Source: Clostridia bacterium | GTDB taxonomy: Bacteria > Bacillota > Clostridia > Christensenellales > Pumilibacteraceae | Assembly (NCBI GenBank): GCA_022793815.1 | Contig: JAAWDP010000007.1 | Location: 62,001 to 126,000 of the forward strand | Direction: 5' to 3' | Length of the DNA stretch: 64,000 nucleotides | Shown here: one piece after another, positions 17,758 through 30,848 of the stretch | Layout of the letters: each line of letters starts with the position of its first letter | How positions within the stretch are numbered: position 1 is the stretch's first letter | Translations under genes and position numbers: made by a program | Notes under the pieces: model-generated | What the model saw: the letters and a program-made list of their open reading frames with translations, nothing else | What the model was told of the DNA's origin: nothing | Database searches by the model: none

Positions 17758-18075
17758 TTGGACGCGCAGTTAAAGAAAGGGCTGCTGGAAGTATGCGTGC
17801 TTGCGGCAATCAAGACAGAGGAATCTTACGGCTATAAGATAATATCCGACGTCAGTCCCTATATCGAGATTTCCGAGTCGACTCTGTATCCGATACTCAA
17901 ACGTCTGGAAACGACGGGTATGGTTACGACCAGGAGCAAGGAACACAATGGCAGACTTCGGAAATACTATATGATAACCGAAAGGGGCAAGCGCAGAATT
18001 AACGAATTTGTCGAGGACCTTGACGAGTTCGAACGAGTTTACAGATTTATTTACGGGAGGTCGGATAGAAAATGA
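17758..18075 (+). CDS. PadR family transcriptional regulator
   Basis: 105 residues. Winged-helix repressor: K-G-L-L-E-V-C-V-L-A-A-I, then S-Y-G-Y-K-I, then S-E-S-T-L-Y-P-I-L-K-R-L-E recognition helix and the wing around R-L-R-K-Y-Y. A TTG start at 17758 is chosen because AAAGGAGGT lies at 17745-17753; a GTG at 17737 would place the RBS inside the gene. Such PadR proteins typically repress the HAAS/DUF4097 genes that follow; the downstream gene overlaps by ATGA. Confidence 0.9.
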   Translation: MDAQLKKGLLEVCVLAAIKTEESYGYKIISDVSPYIEISESTLYPILKRLETTGMVTTRSKEHNGRLRKYYMITERGKRRINEFVEDLDEFERVYRFIYGRSDRK

Positions 18076-18836
18076 CCAAATACGAATGGGAAACCGAACT
18101 TAAAAAGTGCATGTCCCGACTGCCGAAAGCGGAGCAAGACAGGGTGCTTGCTTATTATAACGAATTGTTTGCCGACCGCGCGGACGACGGCATGAGCGAA
18201 AAGCAGATTATAAACGAATTCGGCAATCCCGCCGACGTTGCGTTTAAAATCATGACCGATTACGGCATGGACGAACGTGCGCCCGATACAGAGCGCAAAA
18301 TCGCGCCGCCCGACTTTTTCGGCAAAAGCAGCGAGGATATTACGCCGCCCGATTTCTGGGAAGGGCGCGGCGCAAAAAAGAAACCTGCTTTGCCGACGGA
18401 GAAACAGGAGCGCAAAGAGGAAAAGCGCGACATACGCGAAATGAAGCGTGAAGACAAAGAGGCGCGCAAGGAAGAGCGCGGACAGAAACGCGGCTGTTTT
18501 GCCACGGCGGTATTTTTAATAGAACTCATACTGTTCGGCGGTTTGTTCGCTGGCGCGGTGACGGTTATATGGAGCGTGGTCGTATCGATTTACGCGGTGG
18601 GCTATTCCTGTGCGGCAGGCGCGGTTTACAGCGTTTTATGCGCGGTCATGCCGGGACTGACGCTTGGGACGAGGCTGGTCGAGTTTGCGATTGCGGCGGC
18701 GTGCGCGGGTCTTGCGCTTGCGATAATACCGAACACCGTGAAAATCGCGAAGTGCGGCGCGAAACTGTCGGTCGGATGCTGGAAACTGCTGTTTGGCTGG
18801 TACACGAATAAGCGCACGGGCAAAAAGGAGGCTTAA
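18072..18836 (+). CDS. HAAS-domain (DUF1700) membrane protein
   Basis: 254 residues. N-terminal HAAS domain (M-T-K-Y-E-W start, A-Y-Y-N-E-L-F, I-I-N-E-F-G-N-P), a helical module known to partner PadR regulators in membrane-stress sensing. A highly charged linker with many K/E/R lies at about 75-138, then three or four membrane segments from ~142 to 240. Overlaps padR by ATGA. Probably a membrane-linked signalling partner of PadR and of the DUF4097 protein that follows 2 bases later. Confidence 0.85.
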   Translation: MTKYEWETELKKCMSRLPKAEQDRVLAYYNELFADRADDGMSEKQIINEFGNPADVAFKIMTDYGMDERAPDTERKIAPPDFFGKSSEDITPPDFWEGRGAKKKPALPTEKQERKEEKRDIREMKREDKEARKEERGQKRGCFATAVFLIELILFGGLFAGAVTVIWSVVVSIYAVGYSCAAGAVYSVLCAVMPGLTLGTRLVEFAIAAACAGLALAIIPNTVKIAKCGAKLSVGCWKLLFGWYTNKRTGKKEA

Positions 18837-18838
18837 AA

Positions 18839-19807
18839 ATGAAAAAGGTTAAACTTTCCACGAAAATAGCCGCTGTCGGCATTGCGTTGGTCGTAGTTGC
18901 CGGTGCGCTGTTCGTAGGCGGAATGAGTCTGCTGGACTGGGATTTCAGAAAACTGGACAATACGGTGTGGACAGCCAAAGAATATGCGCCCGAAACGGAA
19001 ACGACGGTTTTGACAAGCGCGGTAATCGATTGCGACAGCTCATACGTAAAAATAGAAAAGGGCGACAGCCTTGCCATACAGTATGAAGAAAGCGACAAAG
19101 TAAAATACGAAGTCGAATGTGAGGGCGGCACTCTTACGGTAAGGGAAAGAAGGCTTTTCAAATTCACGATGTTCGATTTCCACACGCCGAAAATGAGTAT
19201 CGTATTGCCGAGTACCGCGTCGCTGTCGGTGAACGCGGTAAACGGAGATTTGGAAATAAACGATAACTCTTTCGTCGAGTTGAATATAGATATCGTAAAC
19301 TGCGACATGTATTTCGACGGAATCGAGGTTGCACAAAGCGCCATAATCGAAACGGTCAACGGCAATGTAACCCTGCATAATATGACAGCAGGCAACCTGC
19401 GCGCAAACAGCATCAACGGCGATATTAAGGCGACCGAAGTGACGGTGAGAAATTATGCCGAATTGGGAACTGTAAACGGTGACGTTTCGGCGATAAAGTT
19501 CACGGCGGCAAATGTGAAATTCGAGACGGTCAACGGAGATGTTTATACCGAGGAACTGGCTGCGCGTGAATGTGAATTGGGAACGGTCAACGGCGAAATC
19601 GAATCTCGCGATAATCAGACGCGCGACTGGTCCGCAGAAACCGTCAACGGCAGTATAAACGCAAATTTCAAAGGTGAAGAGCGGGAATACAGGATAGAAT
19701 GTCATACGGTCAACGGCAGCAAAAACATGCATGACCGCGAGGACGGAGAAAAAAGCATAACCGCCGAAACCGTCAACGGCGATATTGGTATTTGGTTTTC
19801 TCATTAG
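18839..19807 (+). CDS. DUF4097-type beta-helix surface protein
   Basis: 322 residues. N-terminal membrane anchor or signal (residues ~8-32), then a repeated beta-strand region in which T-V-N-G-D/N/E-type motifs recur about nine times from residue ~135 to the end, the hallmark of the DUF4097 putative-adhesin (LiaG-like) beta-helix. Located outside the membrane by topology. Cotranscribed with the PadR and HAAS genes; exact function of the family is unknown, with an envelope-stress link inferred from context. Confidence 0.85.
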   Translation: MKKVKLSTKIAAVGIALVVVAGALFVGGMSLLDWDFRKLDNTVWTAKEYAPETETTVLTSAVIDCDSSYVKIEKGDSLAIQYEESDKVKYEVECEGGTLTVRERRLFKFTMFDFHTPKMSIVLPSTASLSVNAVNGDLEINDNSFVELNIDIVNCDMYFDGIEVAQSAIIETVNGNVTLHNMTAGNLRANSINGDIKATEVTVRNYAELGTVNGDVSAIKFTAANVKFETVNGDVYTEELAARECELGTVNGEIESRDNQTRDWSAETVNGSINANFKGEEREYRIECHTVNGSKNMHDREDGEKSITAETVNGDIGIWFSH

Positions 19808-19834
19808 GAAAACGAATAAGAAGGAGAAGAAACA

Positions 19835-21016
19835 ATGACTAAATACGAATGGGACAGACGGCTGAGAAAGTCGCTTAAAGAACTGCCTGCGGATGAAAGG
19901 CAGAGAGTGTTCGAATATTACGACGAATTGTTTGAGGACAAAATAGACTCGGGCGAAAAGGAAGAAGCGGTGGTCGCGAGGTTCGGCGAACCCGAAGCTG
20001 CGGCAAGAAAAATACTTGCCGACTACAATGCTTATCTCGGACGCGACGAAGCGGACGCGGCGAATACCGTCGCCAAAGAAAGCGAATATGCCGCCAAAGC
20101 CGATTTCGAAAGAGTCCGTCCGACGCGCGGTTTTTGCGAAGAACCCGATACGGGCGGCGCTTCGGCGAAAGAAGAGGTCAAAGCGCATGCAACCGAAAAC
20201 AACCGCGGAGAAAGCGCGAATCCGCAAGCCGACCCGTTCGACGCAAATACGGACAATTCGCCGTATAAGGGCGTCACGAAGCTGAAAATCGACGTGTGCG
20301 CGTCCGAAGTGGAAATAAGACGGGCGGACAAAACCAATGTCGTCGTCAAAGAGGACGGAGATTCTTCGTGCAGCGTGGAACGCAGCGGAGATACGCTGTA
20401 CATCAAAGAAAAGGGCACGTCGTTTTTCAAACTGCTCGGATTCGGCGTGCGCGGCAAAAAAATGCTAATCGAGCTCCCTGCGCTCGAATCGCTTTCGTTC
20501 GATTCGGTCAAGCGAGGCTGCAACGTGAGCGGCTTCGGCGGACTGCGCCGTGTGACGGTCAAGACCACCAACGGCAATGTGAGGATAGCCGATTGCGACA
20601 CGGAATACCTTTCCGTCAATTCGATTACGGGCGACGTCTGTGTATCGGGCGGCAGGCATGATTCGGCTTATTGCTCCACGACAAGCGGCGACATACGGTT
20701 CGAGGGCGCGTCGGCGGTTGCGTTTACCGCAACTTCCATGAGCGGAGATATTGCGGCTGACAAAATAAGCGTTTCCGACAAAATGCATTTGAGGACCGTA
20801 AGCGGAGGAATCGATGCGGACAGCGCCGTATGCGGCAACGTCGAGTGTAAAACCGTAAGCGGAAACAACAAAGTCGTTCTTGTCGGAAATGCGGCGGATT
20901 ACGGCATCAACGTGCGTTCAATCAGCGGACGCATAAATGCGCCGCGCGGAGGCGGCGACAAAAAGAAAGTGTCCATTTCGACCGTGAGCGGAACCATAGA
21001 CCTCGACATAAAATAG
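19835..21016 (+). CDS. HAAS-DUF4097 fusion protein
   Basis: 393 residues. Begins with a HAAS domain (M-T-K-Y-E-W-D, E-Y-Y-D-E-L-F) clearly paralogous to the gene at 18072, then a charged linker (~75-145), then a DUF4097 beta-helix (~148-393) with repeated T-x-S-G-D/N/G motifs. No membrane segment or signal peptide is visible, so this version should be cytosolic, in contrast to the separate membrane HAAS and anchored DUF4097 proteins upstream. AAGGAG precedes the ATG. Last gene of the PadR cluster. Confidence 0.85.
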   Translation: MTKYEWDRRLRKSLKELPADERQRVFEYYDELFEDKIDSGEKEEAVVARFGEPEAAARKILADYNAYLGRDEADAANTVAKESEYAAKADFERVRPTRGFCEEPDTGGASAKEEVKAHATENNRGESANPQADPFDANTDNSPYKGVTKLKIDVCASEVEIRRADKTNVVVKEDGDSSCSVERSGDTLYIKEKGTSFFKLLGFGVRGKKMLIELPALESLSFDSVKRGCNVSGFGGLRRVTVKTTNGNVRIADCDTEYLSVNSITGDVCVSGGRHDSAYCSTTSGDIRFEGASAVAFTATSMSGDIAADKISVSDKMHLRTVSGGIDADSAVCGNVECKTVSGNNKVVLVGNAADYGINVRSISGRINAPRGGGDKKKVSISTVSGTIDLDIK

Positions 21017-23220: not shown

Positions 23221-23249
23221 TTTACTTTTTCCTCGGAAGAATATATAAT
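23221..23249 (+). promoter_or_regulatory. Promoter of the SPFH/ESCRT-like/alarmone operon
   Basis: TTTACT (23221-23226), 17-base spacer, TATAAT (23244-23249), 30 bases before the first gene. Confidence 0.65.
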
Positions 23250-23278: not shown

Positions 23279-23896
23279 GTGAAACTGCAAATAGACAGGA
23301 CGGAAGATATAGCGAAATGCGTATACGACGGGCAGCTGCCGTACAATACGGCGGTGTCGGTGCCCATGGGTACGGAAGCCGTCTACATAAAAAACGGAAC
23401 CGTAGCCGCGCTTTTGCGAGAGGGAGCAACGGTCGTAAACGGTGCAGGCGCGCTTAAAGCCGCTTTCACCAAATGCAAAGACAGTCAGAAAATTTTTTCC
23501 GTGAACCGCAGTAAACCGTTCACCGTACTGTGGGGAACGGGCGGCATAGGATATACGGGTAAAAACGGCGAAACGAAAGTGGCGGGCAGCAACGGTTTTT
23601 ACCGTTTCACCACGGATAACGCCGCCGCTCTTTTAAGGCGGTTCGGATATGCGGACACGATAACGGCGGACGACGTTAAAAAGCAGTTAAACGGCGCCGT
23701 GACGGGAGCGGTCAAGGAAGAAGTGCTGCGTGCGATAAACGGGGGCGGCTATAATGTGGGAGCTCAGACAAGTGCTATTCAAGAATGCGTACAGCGTAAA
23801 TTGGAGAAAATATTTGCCGATTACGGTTTGTTCCTCGATTGCATTGCGATAGAAGAAGTCACCGACGTATACGGAGGTGGAAATGGCGAAGAATAA
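23279..23896 (+). CDS. SPFH (stomatin/flotillin) domain protein
   Basis: 205 residues, GTG start with AAGGAG at 23264-23269. The pattern of an early strand V-P-M-G-T-E-A-V-Y-I-K-N-G, then I-F-S-V-N-R-S-K-P-F-T-V-L-W-G-T, then a long helical stretch ending in G-L-F-L-D-C-I-A-I-E-E-V fits the short SPFH proteins related to B. subtilis YdjI. SPFH proteins form membrane-associated scaffolds. No membrane segment is visible, so it would be recruited peripherally. It leads an operon with two ESCRT-III-like coiled-coil proteins, paralleling the pspA-ydjGHI operon. The stop overlaps the next gene by 14 bases. Confidence 0.7.
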   Translation: MKLQIDRTEDIAKCVYDGQLPYNTAVSVPMGTEAVYIKNGTVAALLREGATVVNGAGALKAAFTKCKDSQKIFSVNRSKPFTVLWGTGGIGYTGKNGETKVAGSNGFYRFTTDNAAALLRRFGYADTITADDVKKQLNGAVTGAVKEEVLRAINGGGYNVGAQTSAIQECVQRKLEKIFADYGLFLDCIAIEEVTDVYGGGNGEE

Positions 23897-24176
23897 AACC
23901 GAAGCGGCAAACAGGGAGGGCAATGCCAAAGTTTTGGCGAAACTGGCGGAAGTTCGGTCGGGGTCGGAAGATATGGCGGCGAAAAGACGTTTGCGCGACG
24001 TGGAAGAAAAACTTGCGGTTGCCGCGCCGGTTACCGAAACCGACGTGTCTTTCATCGATAAAGAAATTTTGCGGCTGCTGGACGAGTTTCCTTCGGTGGC
24101 GGCGGAGGGTGTGCTCACCGAGCGCTATCTGGAAAGAATAGAAACATTGTCGGCAAGACGCCGCACGCAGGTATAG
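23883..24176 (+). CDS. Small helical protein of the SPFH operon
   Basis: 97 residues, no recognised family. Predicted mostly helical and charged: A-K-V-L-A-K-L-A-E-V then D-V-E-E-K-L, a short break with A-A-P-V-T-E-T-D, then I-D-K-E-I-L-R-L-L-D-E-F and a basic C-terminus. GGAGGTGG sits just before the ATG, inside the end of the SPFH gene, so the two are translationally coupled. Probably an adaptor in the same complex as its neighbours; that is context only. Confidence 0.6.
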   Translation: MAKNKTEAANREGNAKVLAKLAEVRSGSEDMAAKRRLRDVEEKLAVAAPVTETDVSFIDKEILRLLDEFPSVAAEGVLTERYLERIETLSARRRTQV

Positions 24177-24199
24177 CGGCAGCGAAAAGGAGAAACGGT

Positions 24200-24886
24200 A
24201 TGGGACTTTTCAAAAAGAAAAAGAAGACGCCCGATTACGATGCGAAAGCACAGGAAATCGAACGCAATATTTGGGAGTTGGAGAATAAACAGATTGTTTA
24301 TCTCGACAAAATGAAGGGAGTAGTCGCGAAGCAAGCCGAATACAAGCAGGCGGCAAAACGCGAGAGCGACAAAAATATGCAGAGGCATTATGCGAATCTG
24401 TTTCTCAATGCCGAAAAGGAAAAAGAGCAGTATGCTTATTTCATAAACGAAATAAGCAAAGAAATTGTTTCGAACGCCAAAATGGCGCAGCTCGTGGATA
24501 CGCAGGCGCTGTTTGTCCAAATGGAGCAAATGCAGTCGCTTTCGCTGGAAGAAATCGGGCAGATGAGCCAGTCGATAACTTCGTCGCGGCAGAAACGGGA
24601 AGCGCTGACGGGACTGAGAAACGAGGCGATAGACAAAGCCATGTATCATTCGTCGGTTACTCAGCCGCAGACATTGCGCGCCGACGAGCTTTTGGGGCAG
24701 TGGGAAGAAGAGGACTTACAGGCGCAGCGCGAGGAAGAAAACAGGTCGGAGCGCGAGGAAAAAGAAGCCGCCGAACGCGAAAATTCTGCCGAGCAGGCGG
24801 AACAAAGAAATGTATCGAACGAGGAAGAACACGAGGACGATGCGGCGGAAGAATTTTTGCGCAGTCTTTCCGCGGGTGAAATTTAG
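24200..24886 (+). CDS. Coiled-coil protein, candidate ESCRT-III (Snf7-like) subunit 1
   Basis: 228 residues. Starts M-G-L-F-K-K-K-K-K, as Snf7/CHMP4 proteins start with a short hydrophobic-basic tip. A long basic helical hairpin (~12-95; I-W-E-L-E-N-K-Q, then A-N-L-F-L-N-A-E-K-E-K-E-Q-Y) is followed by shorter helices (S-L-S-L-E-E-I-G-Q-M-S-Q) and a strongly acidic tail (~160-220) ending E-E-F-L-R-S-L-S. Basic core plus acidic tail is the ESCRT-III autoinhibition layout. PspA-type coiled coils are the main alternative. RBS AAAGGAG. Similarity judged by eye only. Confidence 0.55.
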   Translation: MGLFKKKKKTPDYDAKAQEIERNIWELENKQIVYLDKMKGVVAKQAEYKQAAKRESDKNMQRHYANLFLNAEKEKEQYAYFINEISKEIVSNAKMAQLVDTQALFVQMEQMQSLSLEEIGQMSQSITSSRQKREALTGLRNEAIDKAMYHSSVTQPQTLRADELLGQWEEEDLQAQREEENRSEREEKEAAERENSAEQAEQRNVSNEEEHEDDAAEEFLRSLSAGEI

Positions 24887-24921
24887 CGGTTGCCGAAAAA
24901 ATAACGGAGAAAGCCAAAGCA

Positions 24922-25503
24922 ATGAGAAAGAGCAAAGAAGACAGGTTGGTACAGCAGCGAATGGCCGTGAATGCGACGATAGGAAAGATGCAGCAGTTTA
25001 TCGCCGAGCTTGAGCCCAAAAAGCAGCTGTTTATCGATAAAGCGCGGCAGGCGAAAAAAATAGGCGCGTCGGGTCAGGAAAATTCGGCCAAGGCGGCTTT
25101 GAAACACGTTGTCAGTCAGCAAAGACTTGCCGAACGCATGCTCGTGAATTTCGAGATAATGGCAAATATGCGCGACCTTACCGAAATGAGCGGAGAGTTT
25201 CTGAACGGTTTGACGCTTATGGGCAAAGAGATGAGCAAACTGACTTCGAAGATGAATTTCGAATCCGGCGAAAAAGAGCTTTCGAAAGCCATGATAACGG
25301 CGCAGGTCCATACGGAAAAGATGACGCAGTTTCTCGACAGAATGAGCATGACGGTAGACTCGGGATTTGAGGAGGCGGACAGCGTGACGGACGAGGAAAT
25401 AGACAATATAGTCGGCTATGACGAAACGGCGGAGCGTAGCGCGCTGGATGACGAAATAGACAGAAAACTAAACGATTTGGAAGGGAAAATAAGACAGCGG
25501 TGA
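24922..25503 (+). CDS. Candidate ESCRT-III (Vps2/CHMP-like) subunit 2
   Basis: 193 residues, almost entirely helical. The order of features mirrors eukaryotic CHMP2/Vps2: a charged first hairpin (R-L-V-Q-Q-R-M-A-V-N ... L-E-P-K-K-Q-L-F-I-D-K), a G-Q-E-N-S-A-K-A-A-L turn into A-E-R-M-L-V-N-F-E-I-M, then a Met-rich segment (M-G-K-E-M-S-K-L-T-S-K-M-N-F-E), a helix with M-T-Q-F-L-D-R-M, an acidic linker (~150-170), and a C-terminal helix D-E-I-D-R-K-L-N-D-L-E that resembles an MIM1 motif (L-x-x-R-L-x-x-L-K). No Vps4-type ATPase is in the window. Stop overlaps the next gene (GTGA). Confidence 0.55.
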   Translation: MRKSKEDRLVQQRMAVNATIGKMQQFIAELEPKKQLFIDKARQAKKIGASGQENSAKAALKHVVSQQRLAERMLVNFEIMANMRDLTEMSGEFLNGLTLMGKEMSKLTSKMNFESGEKELSKAMITAQVHTEKMTQFLDRMSMTVDSGFEEADSVTDEEIDNIVGYDETAERSALDDEIDRKLNDLEGKIRQR

Positions 25504-26768
25504 ATTCGGGTTCGGAACAAAACAAAGCGAGTATAGACGTATTCGAGTATATCGAAAAAGCGGCGGCGGTGCTGGAAGAAAAACGGGATGTTTTAAACCG
25601 CATTGCCGCGAGAATAACGACTCTGCTCGAAGAGATGTACGAGGACGTCGACGAAATGGTGTCCGTAACGTACCGTATAAAGACGGCAAACTCTCTTAAA
25701 GAGAAGATTGTGAGAAACGCGCTGTATAGGCAGTTTTCCGCGGACAGGCTTATTTACGATGCGTCCGATACGATTGGCGTAAGGCTGGAATGCAGATTCC
25801 TTGCGGACGAAAAGCTGTTGTTTTCCCGTTTGGAGAAAATGTTTTCCGTCGAGGGGACGGACGGGTGCCGCAGCGTAAAGGGCAGAAGTATATATCTGAA
25901 ACTCGATACGCCGCAGCCCGAAATACAGAAAAACGGACTTTCTATTTACCGTATCGACGGATATGTTCTTTCGGGCGGCGAAAAGTATAATTTCGAATTG
26001 CAGATAAAATCGCTGGTCAACAGTTTTTGGTCGGAAATAGAACATAAGATAATCTACAAAAACAAACGGTTCATGATGATAGACAAATTCGTGAACGAAC
26101 TTATGATGAGCATACATACGAACCTTGTCAACATAGACAGTCAGCTTCACATGCTGTTCAAGCGCTGTCTTAACACCGCGGGTATCGAGTATAAGGACCA
26201 AGTGGGGGATACGCTCAATCTTTTGATAAACGAAATTTATTCGCGTTTGGTGGAAGACAAGATAGGTTTCCCCGTTAATATAAAAAATTACAGCGAAGCG
26301 CTTGTGAAGTATGTGCTTGAATATTCGTCGTTTACTTCGCGCGCGGGAATGAAGCAGGCGACAATGCGGAGCATATCGGGCGAAAGATATGCCAATACGG
26401 TATTTGCCGTTATGAACAGACTCAGACGTATGGAATTCGACGATTTCCCCGTCGGCGAAAAAATAGAACTCACGCCGCCGTTCAAGCCCGAAACGGATTT
26501 GCAGCGCGCGATTGCCGAAAGGCTGCTGTCCGCAATCAACTGCGATTTTTACGTAAATACGTTCTTTCACATATTTTTCAACCTCGAAGTGGGCGACGAC
26601 AGGCAGGATTTTCAATCTTATGTGGAATACTATGAATGGCGGATTGCACGCGGCAAGACGCAGGCGCAGTCCGTTCTGCTCCGCACGCTTGTCGAAAAGT
26701 CCGAACCTTCCGCCATGCTTTTGGAAAGCGGAATAGAAAAACTGGCGTCGCTGAAAGTCGCCGACTGA
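25500..26768 (+). CDS. RelA/SpoT-type (p)ppGpp synthetase with novel C-terminal half
   Basis: 422 residues, GTG start overlapping the previous stop, so tightly coupled. Residues ~25-190 match the alarmone synthetase fold: R59-x-K61-T-x-x-S65 nucleotide motif, D90-x-x-G93-x-R95, N145-G-L-S-I-Y150, E166-L-Q168-I-K and the closing F-W-S-E-I-E-H-K-I-I-Y-K. There is no HD hydrolase domain before it and no TGS/ACT after it. The C-terminal ~200 residues are helical and unfamiliar. It would make (p)ppGpp or a related nucleotide in response to something sensed by the SPFH/ESCRT-like partners. Activity depends on the substituted GYxxxH region (here Y-R-I-D-G). Confidence 0.75.
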   Translation: MNSGSEQNKASIDVFEYIEKAAAVLEEKRDVLNRIAARITTLLEEMYEDVDEMVSVTYRIKTANSLKEKIVRNALYRQFSADRLIYDASDTIGVRLECRFLADEKLLFSRLEKMFSVEGTDGCRSVKGRSIYLKLDTPQPEIQKNGLSIYRIDGYVLSGGEKYNFELQIKSLVNSFWSEIEHKIIYKNKRFMMIDKFVNELMMSIHTNLVNIDSQLHMLFKRCLNTAGIEYKDQVGDTLNLLINEIYSRLVEDKIGFPVNIKNYSEALVKYVLEYSSFTSRAGMKQATMRSISGERYANTVFAVMNRLRRMEFDDFPVGEKIELTPPFKPETDLQRAIAERLLSAINCDFYVNTFFHIFFNLEVGDDRQDFQSYVEYYEWRIARGKTQAQSVLLRTLVEKSEPSAMLLESGIEKLASLKVAD

Positions 26769-27687: not shown

Positions 27688-28767
27688 ATGAAAATAGGCG
27701 TGCTTACAAGCGGCGGAGATTGTCCTGCGCTTAATGCCGTGCTTCGAGGATTGGGCAAATATGTTTACGAGAACATTCCGAAAGCTGAAATCATAGGTAT
27801 TGCCGACGGTTACGGCGGTCTTATCGACGGAGAGTACCGCAAAATGAGCCGTTCGGATTTTTCGGGGATTCTCAACGTAGGGGGAACGATACTCGGTACG
27901 TCGCGTCAGCCGTTCAAGAAAATGACTCTCAAAACCGACGACGACCCGGTAACGAAAGCCGAGAAGATGAAAGAAAACTATAAGGCGATGAAACTGGACT
28001 GTCTTGTGACTCTCGGCGGCGCGGGTACGCATAAGTCCGCCGCGCTTCTGTCTTCGCTCGGACTGAATGTTATAGGACTGCCGAAAACGATAGACAACGA
28101 TATTTACGGTACGGACGTTACGTTCGGGTTCCATACCGCCGTCGAAATAGCCACCGAGTGTATAGACCGGGTTCATACCACGGCGGCGAGTCACGGAAGA
28201 ACGATGCTTGTGGAAATAATGGGCAACAAAGTGGGATGGCTCACTTTATATGCCGGAATAGCAGGCGGCGCGGATATAATTCTTTTGCCCGAATTGCCGT
28301 TCGATACGGAACGTGTGTTGAAGAAAATAAGGGAACGTGCAGAAGAAGGCAAGGCTTTCTCGATAATCGCCGTTGCGGAAGGCGCAATGACGGAAGAAGA
28401 AGCCAAAATGAAAAAGAAAGACCGCATGGCGGCGCGTGCGGAAAAAGGGTATACGACGGTGACCGGCGAACTTGCCGGGCTTATCGGGCAGCAGGTCGGC
28501 GTGGATACCCGCGTCGTTGTGCCGGGACACATGCAGCGCGGCGGCGCTCCTTCGCCTTACGACCGACTGCTGTCCACGCAAATCGGCTCTTATGCGGGCA
28601 GTCTTATAAAGCAGGGGATATTCGGGGTAAGCGTTGCCGTCAGGGGCGAGCAAATGACTTACAACCGACTGGAAGACATTGCGGGAAAACAGAAAGCCGT
28701 GCCTGCCGACCACCCTTTGATAAAAGCCGCGAGGGACATAGGCATATCGTTCGGCGTCAAAAGATGA
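27688..28767 (+). CDS. pfkA: 6-phosphofructokinase family enzyme
   Basis: 359 residues. Phosphorylates fructose 6-phosphate in glycolysis. G-V-L-T-S-G-G-D-C-P-A-L-N-A and catalytic D136 in P-K-T-I-D-N-D are clear, as are the M-G-N-K-V-G-W and P-G-H-M-Q-R-G-G motifs. The phosphoryl-donor loop reads G-G-A-G-T (110-114) rather than G-G-D-G-S (ATP type) or G-G-D-D (PPi type), while K133 is the residue found in PPi-dependent and group III enzymes. Donor preference is therefore open. Sits between a LacI regulator and polyphosphate kinase. Confidence 0.88.
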   Translation: MKIGVLTSGGDCPALNAVLRGLGKYVYENIPKAEIIGIADGYGGLIDGEYRKMSRSDFSGILNVGGTILGTSRQPFKKMTLKTDDDPVTKAEKMKENYKAMKLDCLVTLGGAGTHKSAALLSSLGLNVIGLPKTIDNDIYGTDVTFGFHTAVEIATECIDRVHTTAASHGRTMLVEIMGNKVGWLTLYAGIAGGADIILLPELPFDTERVLKKIRERAEEGKAFSIIAVAEGAMTEEEAKMKKKDRMAARAEKGYTTVTGELAGLIGQQVGVDTRVVVPGHMQRGGAPSPYDRLLSTQIGSYAGSLIKQGIFGVSVAVRGEQMTYNRLEDIAGKQKAVPADHPLIKAARDIGISFGVKR

Positions 28768-28790
28768 GATAAAAGCAAACGGAGAAAAGA

Positions 28791-30848
28791 ATGGCAAAAA
28801 ATATTTTCCGAGACGGCGTGTTTATGAACCGCGAATACAGCCACATGCTGTTTAACGACCGCGTACTCGAACAAGCCGACGATAAAAGCACCCCCGTATT
28901 CGAACGGGGGAAGTTCCTGTCCATATTTACGTCCAATTCCGACGAATTCTATATGGTGCGCATGGGGTCGCTGTACAATCAGATGACGCATGCTCCGTCG
29001 GCTAAGGAAAACAAGACGCATTTGACGGCAAAACAGCAGAGCGACGGAATTTTGGAAGAAACGAAAATCCGCTATAAGCGACGCGCCGAGGTTTGGGCGC
29101 GTCTTAAAAAAGATTTGAAAAGCGCGGGCGTCAAAGTGTCGGACGCCGACGAGTGCGGCGAAAAACAGAAGAAAGAGGCGAAAGAGTTCTTTTTTACGAA
29201 AGCCCTGCCGTATTTGAGCCCTTTGGTCATAGACTCCAAACATCCCATGCTCCGCTTCGCAAACAAGGCGGTGTATCTTGCGCTCGACCTCGTCAAAGGC
29301 GACAAGAGCATGATAGGACTTCTGCCCGTTCCCGAAAACCTGCCGAGGGTTGTGCCTATTAATTCGGGAAAGAAAACCTGCGTCATGTTGAGCGAGGATA
29401 TCGTCGCGATGTTCGGCTCGCATTGTTTTCCGCATTATACCGTCAAAGACAGGGCGTTTATCCGTGTTACGAGAAACGCAGATTTCGAAACGAACGAGTC
29501 GGATGTGGATTCGGAATACGATTACGACTTTTCCAAGTATCTCAAAGAAAAAGTGGAAATGCGCGCGTCGCTCGATGCGGTGCGGTTGGAAATCTGCGGC
29601 GGCAGCGAAAAAATAAAAAATTTCCTTTTGAAAAACCTGTCGCTTAAAAAGAACCGCTGTTTCGAAGTGACGGACAGATTGGATTATAAATTTTTGCTTG
29701 ATTTGGATAAATATGTTTCTCCCGATGCGGCGGCGGTCGGAAAATATCCGCCGTTTAAGGGCAGGATACCGAAATGGGCGGAAGGCGGCGTGATGAACGC
29801 GGTGCTGAAAAAGGATGTATTTTTGTCTTACCCGTTCGATACGGCGGATACGTTTATAAAGCTGTTGAACGAATGCGCCGAGTCGGACAAGGTCCGAAGC
29901 ATAAAAATCACCATATACCGTTTATACCGTCATTCGAAAGTCGTGGATGCTCTTATCCGCGCGTGCGAACGGGGCAAAGACGTTACCGTCGTAATAGAAT
30001 TGCTTGCGCGTTTCGACGAGGAAAGCAATATGTACTATGCCGATATTTTGCAGGAAGCCGGCTGTACCGTTATTTACGGCATGGGCAATTATAAAGTGCA
30101 CTCTAAAATAGTGTCGGTGGTACTGGAAGAGAAGGAAAACGTCAAGTATATCACGCATATAGGCACGGGAAACTATAACGAAGGTACTGCAAAGCAGTAT
30201 ACGGATTTGAACATCATAACTTCCGATACGCAAATAGGCGAGGATGCGGCGATGTTTTTCCGAAATATCGCCGTCGGAGAAACGCAGTACGAATACAAAA
30301 AACTTTTGGTTGCTCCGCATACTCTAAAAAACGGTCTTATCCTAAGAATAGACAGACAAATCGAAATAGCGAAAAACGGCGGTAACGGGCGTATTGTCGC
30401 AAAGATGAACAGTCTGACCGACCGCGAACTTATTTCGAAATTCATAGAGGCGTCCGAGGCGGGCGTAAAAATCAACCTTATAGTCAGAGGGATATGCTGT
30501 CTTGTCCCCGGTGTCGCGGGAAAGACCGAGAATATAACGGTAAAGAGCATAGTGGGGCGGTTTTTGGAGCACTCGCGCATTTACCGTTTCGGAGAGGGTA
30601 AAGACGCCGAATTGTTTATTTCTTCCGCCGACCTTATGACGCGAAACATAGAGCGCCGCGTCGAAATAGCCGCGCCTATACTCGACGAAAAGATAAAATC
30701 CACTGTTTCGAAAATGCTGGAAATAATGCTTGCCGACAACGTCAAGGGACGCATGCTCACATCACGCGGCAGGTACGTAAAACCGCAAACCGCCGAAGGC
30801 GAAGAAAGAACGGACAGTCAGGAGTATTTTTTAAATCACGAAATATAA
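28791..30848 (+). CDS. ppk1: Polyphosphate kinase 1
   Basis: 685 residues. Reversibly makes inorganic polyphosphate from ATP. The N-terminal domain begins F-M-N-R-E-Y-S-H-M-L-F-N-D-R; the autophosphorylated His is H437 in N-Y-K-V-H-S-K, followed by I-T-H-I-G-T-G-N-Y-N-E. The second catalytic region (R-G-I-C-C-L-V-P-G and S-A-D-L-M-T-R-N) is intact. 23 bases after pfkA and followed by a terminator, so it ends the long operon. Confidence 0.95.
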   Translation: MAKNIFRDGVFMNREYSHMLFNDRVLEQADDKSTPVFERGKFLSIFTSNSDEFYMVRMGSLYNQMTHAPSAKENKTHLTAKQQSDGILEETKIRYKRRAEVWARLKKDLKSAGVKVSDADECGEKQKKEAKEFFFTKALPYLSPLVIDSKHPMLRFANKAVYLALDLVKGDKSMIGLLPVPENLPRVVPINSGKKTCVMLSEDIVAMFGSHCFPHYTVKDRAFIRVTRNADFETNESDVDSEYDYDFSKYLKEKVEMRASLDAVRLEICGGSEKIKNFLLKNLSLKKNRCFEVTDRLDYKFLLDLDKYVSPDAAAVGKYPPFKGRIPKWAEGGVMNAVLKKDVFLSYPFDTADTFIKLLNECAESDKVRSIKITIYRLYRHSKVVDALIRACERGKDVTVVIELLARFDEESNMYYADILQEAGCTVIYGMGNYKVHSKIVSVVLEEKENVKYITHIGTGNYNEGTAKQYTDLNIITSDTQIGEDAAMFFRNIAVGETQYEYKKLLVAPHTLKNGLILRIDRQIEIAKNGGNGRIVAKMNSLTDRELISKFIEASEAGVKINLIVRGICCLVPGVAGKTENITVKSIVGRFLEHSRIYRFGEGKDAELFISSADLMTRNIERRVEIAAPILDEKIKSTVSKMLEIMLADNVKGRMLTSRGRYVKPQTAEGEERTDSQEYFLNHEI

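Follow-up and report, generated by a model that had tools for sequence, protein, structure and literature searches.

Membrane-cutting ESCRT-III (endosomal sorting complex required for transport III) systems with the ATPase Vps4 were found confined to archaea and eukaryotes in a 2024 survey (Makarova 2024, PMC10936438), and a 2023 review described for bacteria a single ESCRT-III protein of the PspA type and no clear Vps4 homologue (PMC7615534). The general idea of such a bacterial system is not new: Ravi 2024 (PMC11237479) described operons joining Band-7 with PspA, a number of PspA/Snf7-AAA operons in bacteria, and Vps4-like transfers into bacteria. The subject here is a five-gene operon of a Clostridia bacterium (Pumilibacteraceae; assembly GCA_022793815.1, contig JAAWDP010000007.1, positions 62,001 to 126,000, a stretch of 64,000 nucleotides termed the window), encoding an SPFH protein, a small helical protein (SH), two ESCRT-III-like proteins (E1 and E2) and a RelA_SpoT-domain protein (RSH); in related genomes the usual cassette also holds an ATPase with MIT-like and AAA domains (MIT-AAA). 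The genes may specify a membrane-associated ESCRT-III-like polymer system, with its ATPase supplied in trans and RSH as an output using an acceptor other than GDP or GTP, a reading to which we give about even chances. Neither a cassette of SPFH, two Snf7-like proteins and MIT-AAA nor its RelA-linked branch was found described in the literature searched, with subscription papers and preprints outside the search, and to that extent the statement in a preliminary description of this DNA that no such combination was known holds.

Like the archaeal and eukaryotic ESCRT-III and Vps4 systems (CdvB/CdvC, PMC10936438), the cassette encodes two ESCRT-III-like proteins together with an MIT-AAA ATPase, and some archaeal ESCRT loci contain SPFH as well (PMC10936438). 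It differs from them in being bacterial and found in one order only, in having an AAA part nearer to CDC48, and in that no winged-helix ESCRT-II gene was recognised. With the bacterial phage shock protein (PSP) systems (PMC11237479; PspA-YdjI of B. subtilis) it shares a Band-7 protein and a protein of the ESCRT-III superfamily, but the cassette has two proteins of Snf7 rather than PspA type, and MIT-AAA and SH in addition. A parallel to PspA and YdjI drawn in the preliminary description had to be given up, no PspA_IM30 (PF04012) match being present in the window proteins or the genome. How polymer and ATPase came to be coupled, and whether more than once, would become testable in bacteria through a conserved operon that encodes both an MIT-AAA ATPase and two ESCRT-III-like proteins.

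Re-checking the open reading frames of the window returned exactly the five genes, coordinates, overlaps and gaps that had been claimed, all on the forward strand:

23221..23249, + strand, sigma-A-type promoter-like site, TTTACT-17-TATAAT with 10/12 matches, 30 bp upstream of the start of SPFH
23279..23896, + strand, SPFH/Band-7 protein, 205 aa (PF13421 E=6e-6, above the Pfam cut-off)
23883..24176, + strand, SH, small helical protein, 97 aa (family of 21, relatives in the same operon slot)
24200..24886, + strand, E1, first ESCRT-III-like coiled-coil protein, 228 aa (E1b-family hhalign and AlphaFold2 (AF2)/Foldseek)
24922..25503, + strand, E2, second ESCRT-III-like protein, Snf7-related family, 193 aa (family Snf7 matches and AF2/Foldseek)
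25447..25479, + strand, MIM1-like C-terminal motif of E2, DDEIDRKLNDL (relaxed pattern)
25500..26768, + strand, RSH, RelA_SpoT-domain protein, 422 aa (PF04607 E=5e-11, above cut-off; RelP 6ewz E=5.8e-5)
25932..25961, + strand, altered G-loop of RSH, NGLSIYRIDG in place of the NGYRSLH of synthetases (alignment)

SPFH and SH overlap by 14 bases (23883-23896) and E2 and RSH by 4 (25500-25503), with gaps of 23 bases between SH and E1 and of 35 between E1 and E2. The promoter scan as a whole was not enriched (5 sites vs 3.5 in shuffles); a similar -10 element with 17-nt spacing was read by eye at the same place before the cassette in three relatives, namely G001, of the window's genus (g1), and G010 and G024, of genus g10. 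Apart from one weak match inside SH, no terminator-like sites lie between the five genes, such sites being no more frequent than in shuffles. Judged from this layout, the SPFH-SH-E1-E2-RSH block is likely a single transcript.

Relatives of E2 were gathered from two successive sets, 61 related genomes and 297 genomes of the order, largely draft assemblies, with genes called by a simple caller of our own. E2 is present in 30 of the 297; genomes sampled from the class and phylum beyond the order gave none. Some E2-type domains occur in fusions, one with an FtsK/SpoIIIE motor (L065:9506-11419) and one with a RuvB helicase (L071:1301-4186), and long fusions of similar kind occur at L066, L067, L069 and L072. 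Snf7 (PF03357) is matched by 11 of 25 aligned E2 members at E<=1, five of them at E<=0.01, and by none of ten reversed E2 sequences; it is the only Pfam family that many members have in common. In the AlphaFold model of window E2 (pLDDT 71.6) shorter helices follow a long hairpin (helices 5-47, 50-82, 91-109, 117-144, 157-165 and 172-192). The top 17 PDB matches that Foldseek gives for it are without exception CdvB, CHMP, IST1-CHMP1B or Vipp1 (E>=0.08), while VIA-align Z-scores of ~8-9 are at the level of unrelated helical proteins. E1 is related to E1b, its positional counterpart in the other cassettes (hhalign 9e-5), and the AF2 model of E1, built on the joint E1/E1b alignment (pLDDT 84), retrieves ESCRT-III, Vipp1 or PspA structures as about 22 of its 30 top matches (best E=0.022). 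Both models show the long alpha1-alpha2 hairpin and shorter helices that are a feature of ESCRT-III, and the structure prediction suggested earlier for the two coiled coils agrees with their proposed identity, at weak E-values. The assignment of E1 and E2 to ESCRT-III is therefore made from the family profile and the predicted folds, not from the single window sequences; single-sequence searches of Pfam, NCBIfam and the PDB were set aside as a route to their identity, having given no meaningful match. Searching PDB sequences with the E2 profile gave chance matches only, and direct hhalign gave no support for homology between E1 and E2. A relaxed MIM1-like pattern, set after inspection, occurs in 15 of 42 E2-family tails vs 0.38 expected in shuffles, and the strict pattern in none of the 42. 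With the SPFH gene over its Pfam cut-off, the earlier proposal of SPFH and two ESCRT-III-like proteins in one operon stands, and the family profile and models make it quite probable that E1 and E2 polymerise in the manner of ESCRT-III on a platform of SPFH.

Of 39 loci of the order (the window and 38 others), 33 have beside E2, mostly as the next gene, a gene for an ATPase that combines an MIT-like N-terminus with one or two AAA domains; the most frequent order is SPFH-SH-E1b-E2-MIT-AAA. Because the usual partner, absent from the preliminary description, is an MIT-AAA ATPase, the cassette can be called ESCRT-III/Vps4-like, and the window operon is an unusual branch of it. Pfam MIT was recognised in 4 of 32 ATPase members (best 9.1e-7), and the archaeal Vps4 MIT structure 2w2u was among the PDB matches (E=0.008); TPR models also match the N-terminus, weakly. 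NCBIfam returned both CdvC (1.7e-57) and CDC48 (3.4e-62), and matches to the Vps4_C oligomerisation helix fell just under cut-off (4.8e-4 to 9.6e-4). Since the AAA part is nearest to CDC48 D2, 'Vps4-like' describes the architecture only. The first search for the ATPase in the class was swamped by FtsH-like AAA proteins. An identity as IetA/TRIP13, offered by PADLOC, was rejected, the matches being confined to the AAA domain. In cassettes that encode the ATPase, the balance tips somewhat toward the polymer being remodelled by it, and less so for action in trans in the window genome (G000). That genome has a second, complete cassette with SPFH carrying zinc ribbons, SH, E1b, E2 and a 695-aa MIT-AAA-AAA protein (L060, G000:C13:43000-55500), and a stand-alone 348-aa MIT-AAA gene with intact Walker motifs apart from any cassette (G000:C11; L125:6394-7440). 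G001 likewise has two MIT genes, one of them stand-alone (C6), and in g10 the ATPase is kept in the cassette, inserted before RSH.

The RelA/SpoT-type domain previously noticed in the fifth gene was confirmed, and ~230 aa of C-terminal sequence extend beyond it. Across the RSH family, R59, K61, S65 and K69 of the ATP site and D90 and E166 of the Mg site are invariant; the motifs RxKxxxSxxEK and ExQI are retained in RSH, as is the Mg-site Asp. Where synthetases have NGYRSLH, the family has NG[LYF]xIYRIDG (Leu147 in the window protein), and in the profile alignment with a RelP/RelQ-like protein RSLH falls in a four-residue gap. The G-loop Tyr is critical for guanosine binding (PMC5794853), and with this motif lost (p)ppGpp synthesis by RSH is doubtful. 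RSH thus resembles the small alarmone synthetases RelP and RelQ (PMC5794853) in its RelA_SpoT domain and ATP and Mg residues, but differs in the lost G-loop motif and in the long C-terminal region. The toxSAS pyrophosphotransferases FaRel2 and CapRel (PMC11782079) offer a parallel in concept, a RelA-fold enzyme acting on something other than GTP; FaRel2, however, keeps the acceptor Tyr (Y128), no antitoxin was identified for RSH, and RSH has no CapRel match in PADLOC. Judged by the residues that it keeps and lacks, RSH is less likely to be an alarmone synthetase than either a regulatory ATP-binding protein or a pyrophosphotransferase that uses another acceptor. A Csn2 match (NCBIfam 1e-4, PADLOC 3e-5) covers residues 163-264 only, lies below cut-off and was taken as chance.

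The window gene order recurs in G001, and in G010 and G024 with the ATPase insertion, across two genera that are only ~50% identical. In 74 genomes of the family all four E1-type cassettes are followed by RSH; the order is thus not unique to one genome, as had been asked of it, but the hoped-for breadth of co-occurrence comes to these four genomes in two genera. The E2s of the RSH-linked cassettes form one clade (support 100/96), by which the linkage is of one origin; the RSH tree supports the grouping of linked RSHs neither way. Because the genes on either side are not the same in g1 as in g10, the block has been kept together through rearrangement.

In the scheme we favour, SPFH would, with SH, form a membrane platform on which E1 and E2 co-polymerise, and the MIT-AAA ATPase would grip the C-terminal helix of E2 and pull subunits out, being supplied in the window genus from another locus, either the C11 gene or the complete cassette on C13. 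RSH, with its RelA fold and in the same transcript, would be the output of the E1-type cassette subtype. A polymer forming or being remodelled at a damaged membrane would be the trigger, and RSH would then move pyrophosphate from ATP to an acceptor, probably not GDP or GTP, which might be a tRNA end, an adenine nucleotide or another molecule. The RelA-linked branch would offer a testable link from membrane remodelling to a nucleotide-modifying enzyme. A bolder version is tentative, with the chances running rather against it: a bacterial ESCRT with a two-subunit polymer on an SPFH platform, an MIT-AAA ATPase to remodel it, derived from CDC48 independently of Vps4, and one lineage controlling a RelA-fold pyrophosphotransferase with a new acceptor. 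If true, membrane state would be read out as a chemical signal.

Several results weigh against the favoured scheme, and they bear on its rivals. Of the 297 genomes of the order 39 have RSH, and most of these lack E2; since it is usually encoded without a cassette, RSH has a cassette-independent role. GH3 directly precedes RSH in g18, and in g2 RSH adjoins the phosphofructokinase and polyphosphate kinase genes (PFK-PPK) that are the window's downstream neighbours; from these adjacencies the cassette was probably inserted between GH3 and RSH in g1. It is therefore a real, if lesser, possibility that the cassette serves ESCRT-III/SPFH membrane repair and RSH is a mere neighbour, an older independent gene upstream of which the cassette landed, although the linkage survives in g10 with other flanks and despite the divergence between the genera, g1 has the 4-base overlap, and the linked E2s form a single clade. 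Functional coupling of RSH to the cassette is balanced evenly in our estimate. The preliminary description had proposed that membrane damage sensed by the polymer turns on (p)ppGpp synthesis by RSH. This would be allowed by the RelA_SpoT domain, in which the ATP and Mg residues are intact, but the G-loop Tyr is replaced by Leu and the Ser and His are missing, whereas several other RelA/SpoT proteins of the family retain NGYRSLH, and the genome also has a housekeeping Rel, with NNYRSLH. With most relatives encoding RSH away from the cassette, the proposal has lost most of its ground, and (p)ppGpp is a very improbable product of RSH.

The remaining points against the scheme concern the cassette itself. 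As in its genus, the window operon has no ATPase gene, and the AAA domain of the ATPases is closer to CDC48 D2 (1e-106) than to Vps4 (7e-60). Taken alone, window E1 and E2 have no Pfam match, to Snf7 or PspA, so that the profile check proposed for the 24200 and 24922 proteins came out negative for the single sequences and positive for the E2 family, with Snf7 at best 5.6e-7. The fold searches gave weak E-values, and long helices readily find matches. E1 and E2 could on these grounds be unrelated coiled coils, and MIT-AAA a generic AAA chaperone of SPFH assemblies; this is unlikely, as the shared Snf7 signal of the E2 family is gone in the reversed controls and two independent predicted folds retrieve one superfamily.

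SH had no Pfam match in a single-sequence search. Five of the 21 SH proteins (L061, L105, L110, L112, L114) have an N-terminal hydrophobic segment (mean hydropathy 2.8-3.3), which suggests membrane anchoring, and at L068 and L120 the SH sequence is fused into a longer protein. Just upstream of the operon, with GH3 between, lie PadR, HAAS, Toastrack (DUF4097) and HAAS-Toastrack genes (17758-21016), in an order identical in G001; both PadR-HAAS and Toastrack have been reported as partners of the PSP systems of membrane stress (PMC11237479). After RSH come the phosphofructokinase and polyphosphate kinase genes (27688-30848), and this adjacency is also found in G001 and G002.

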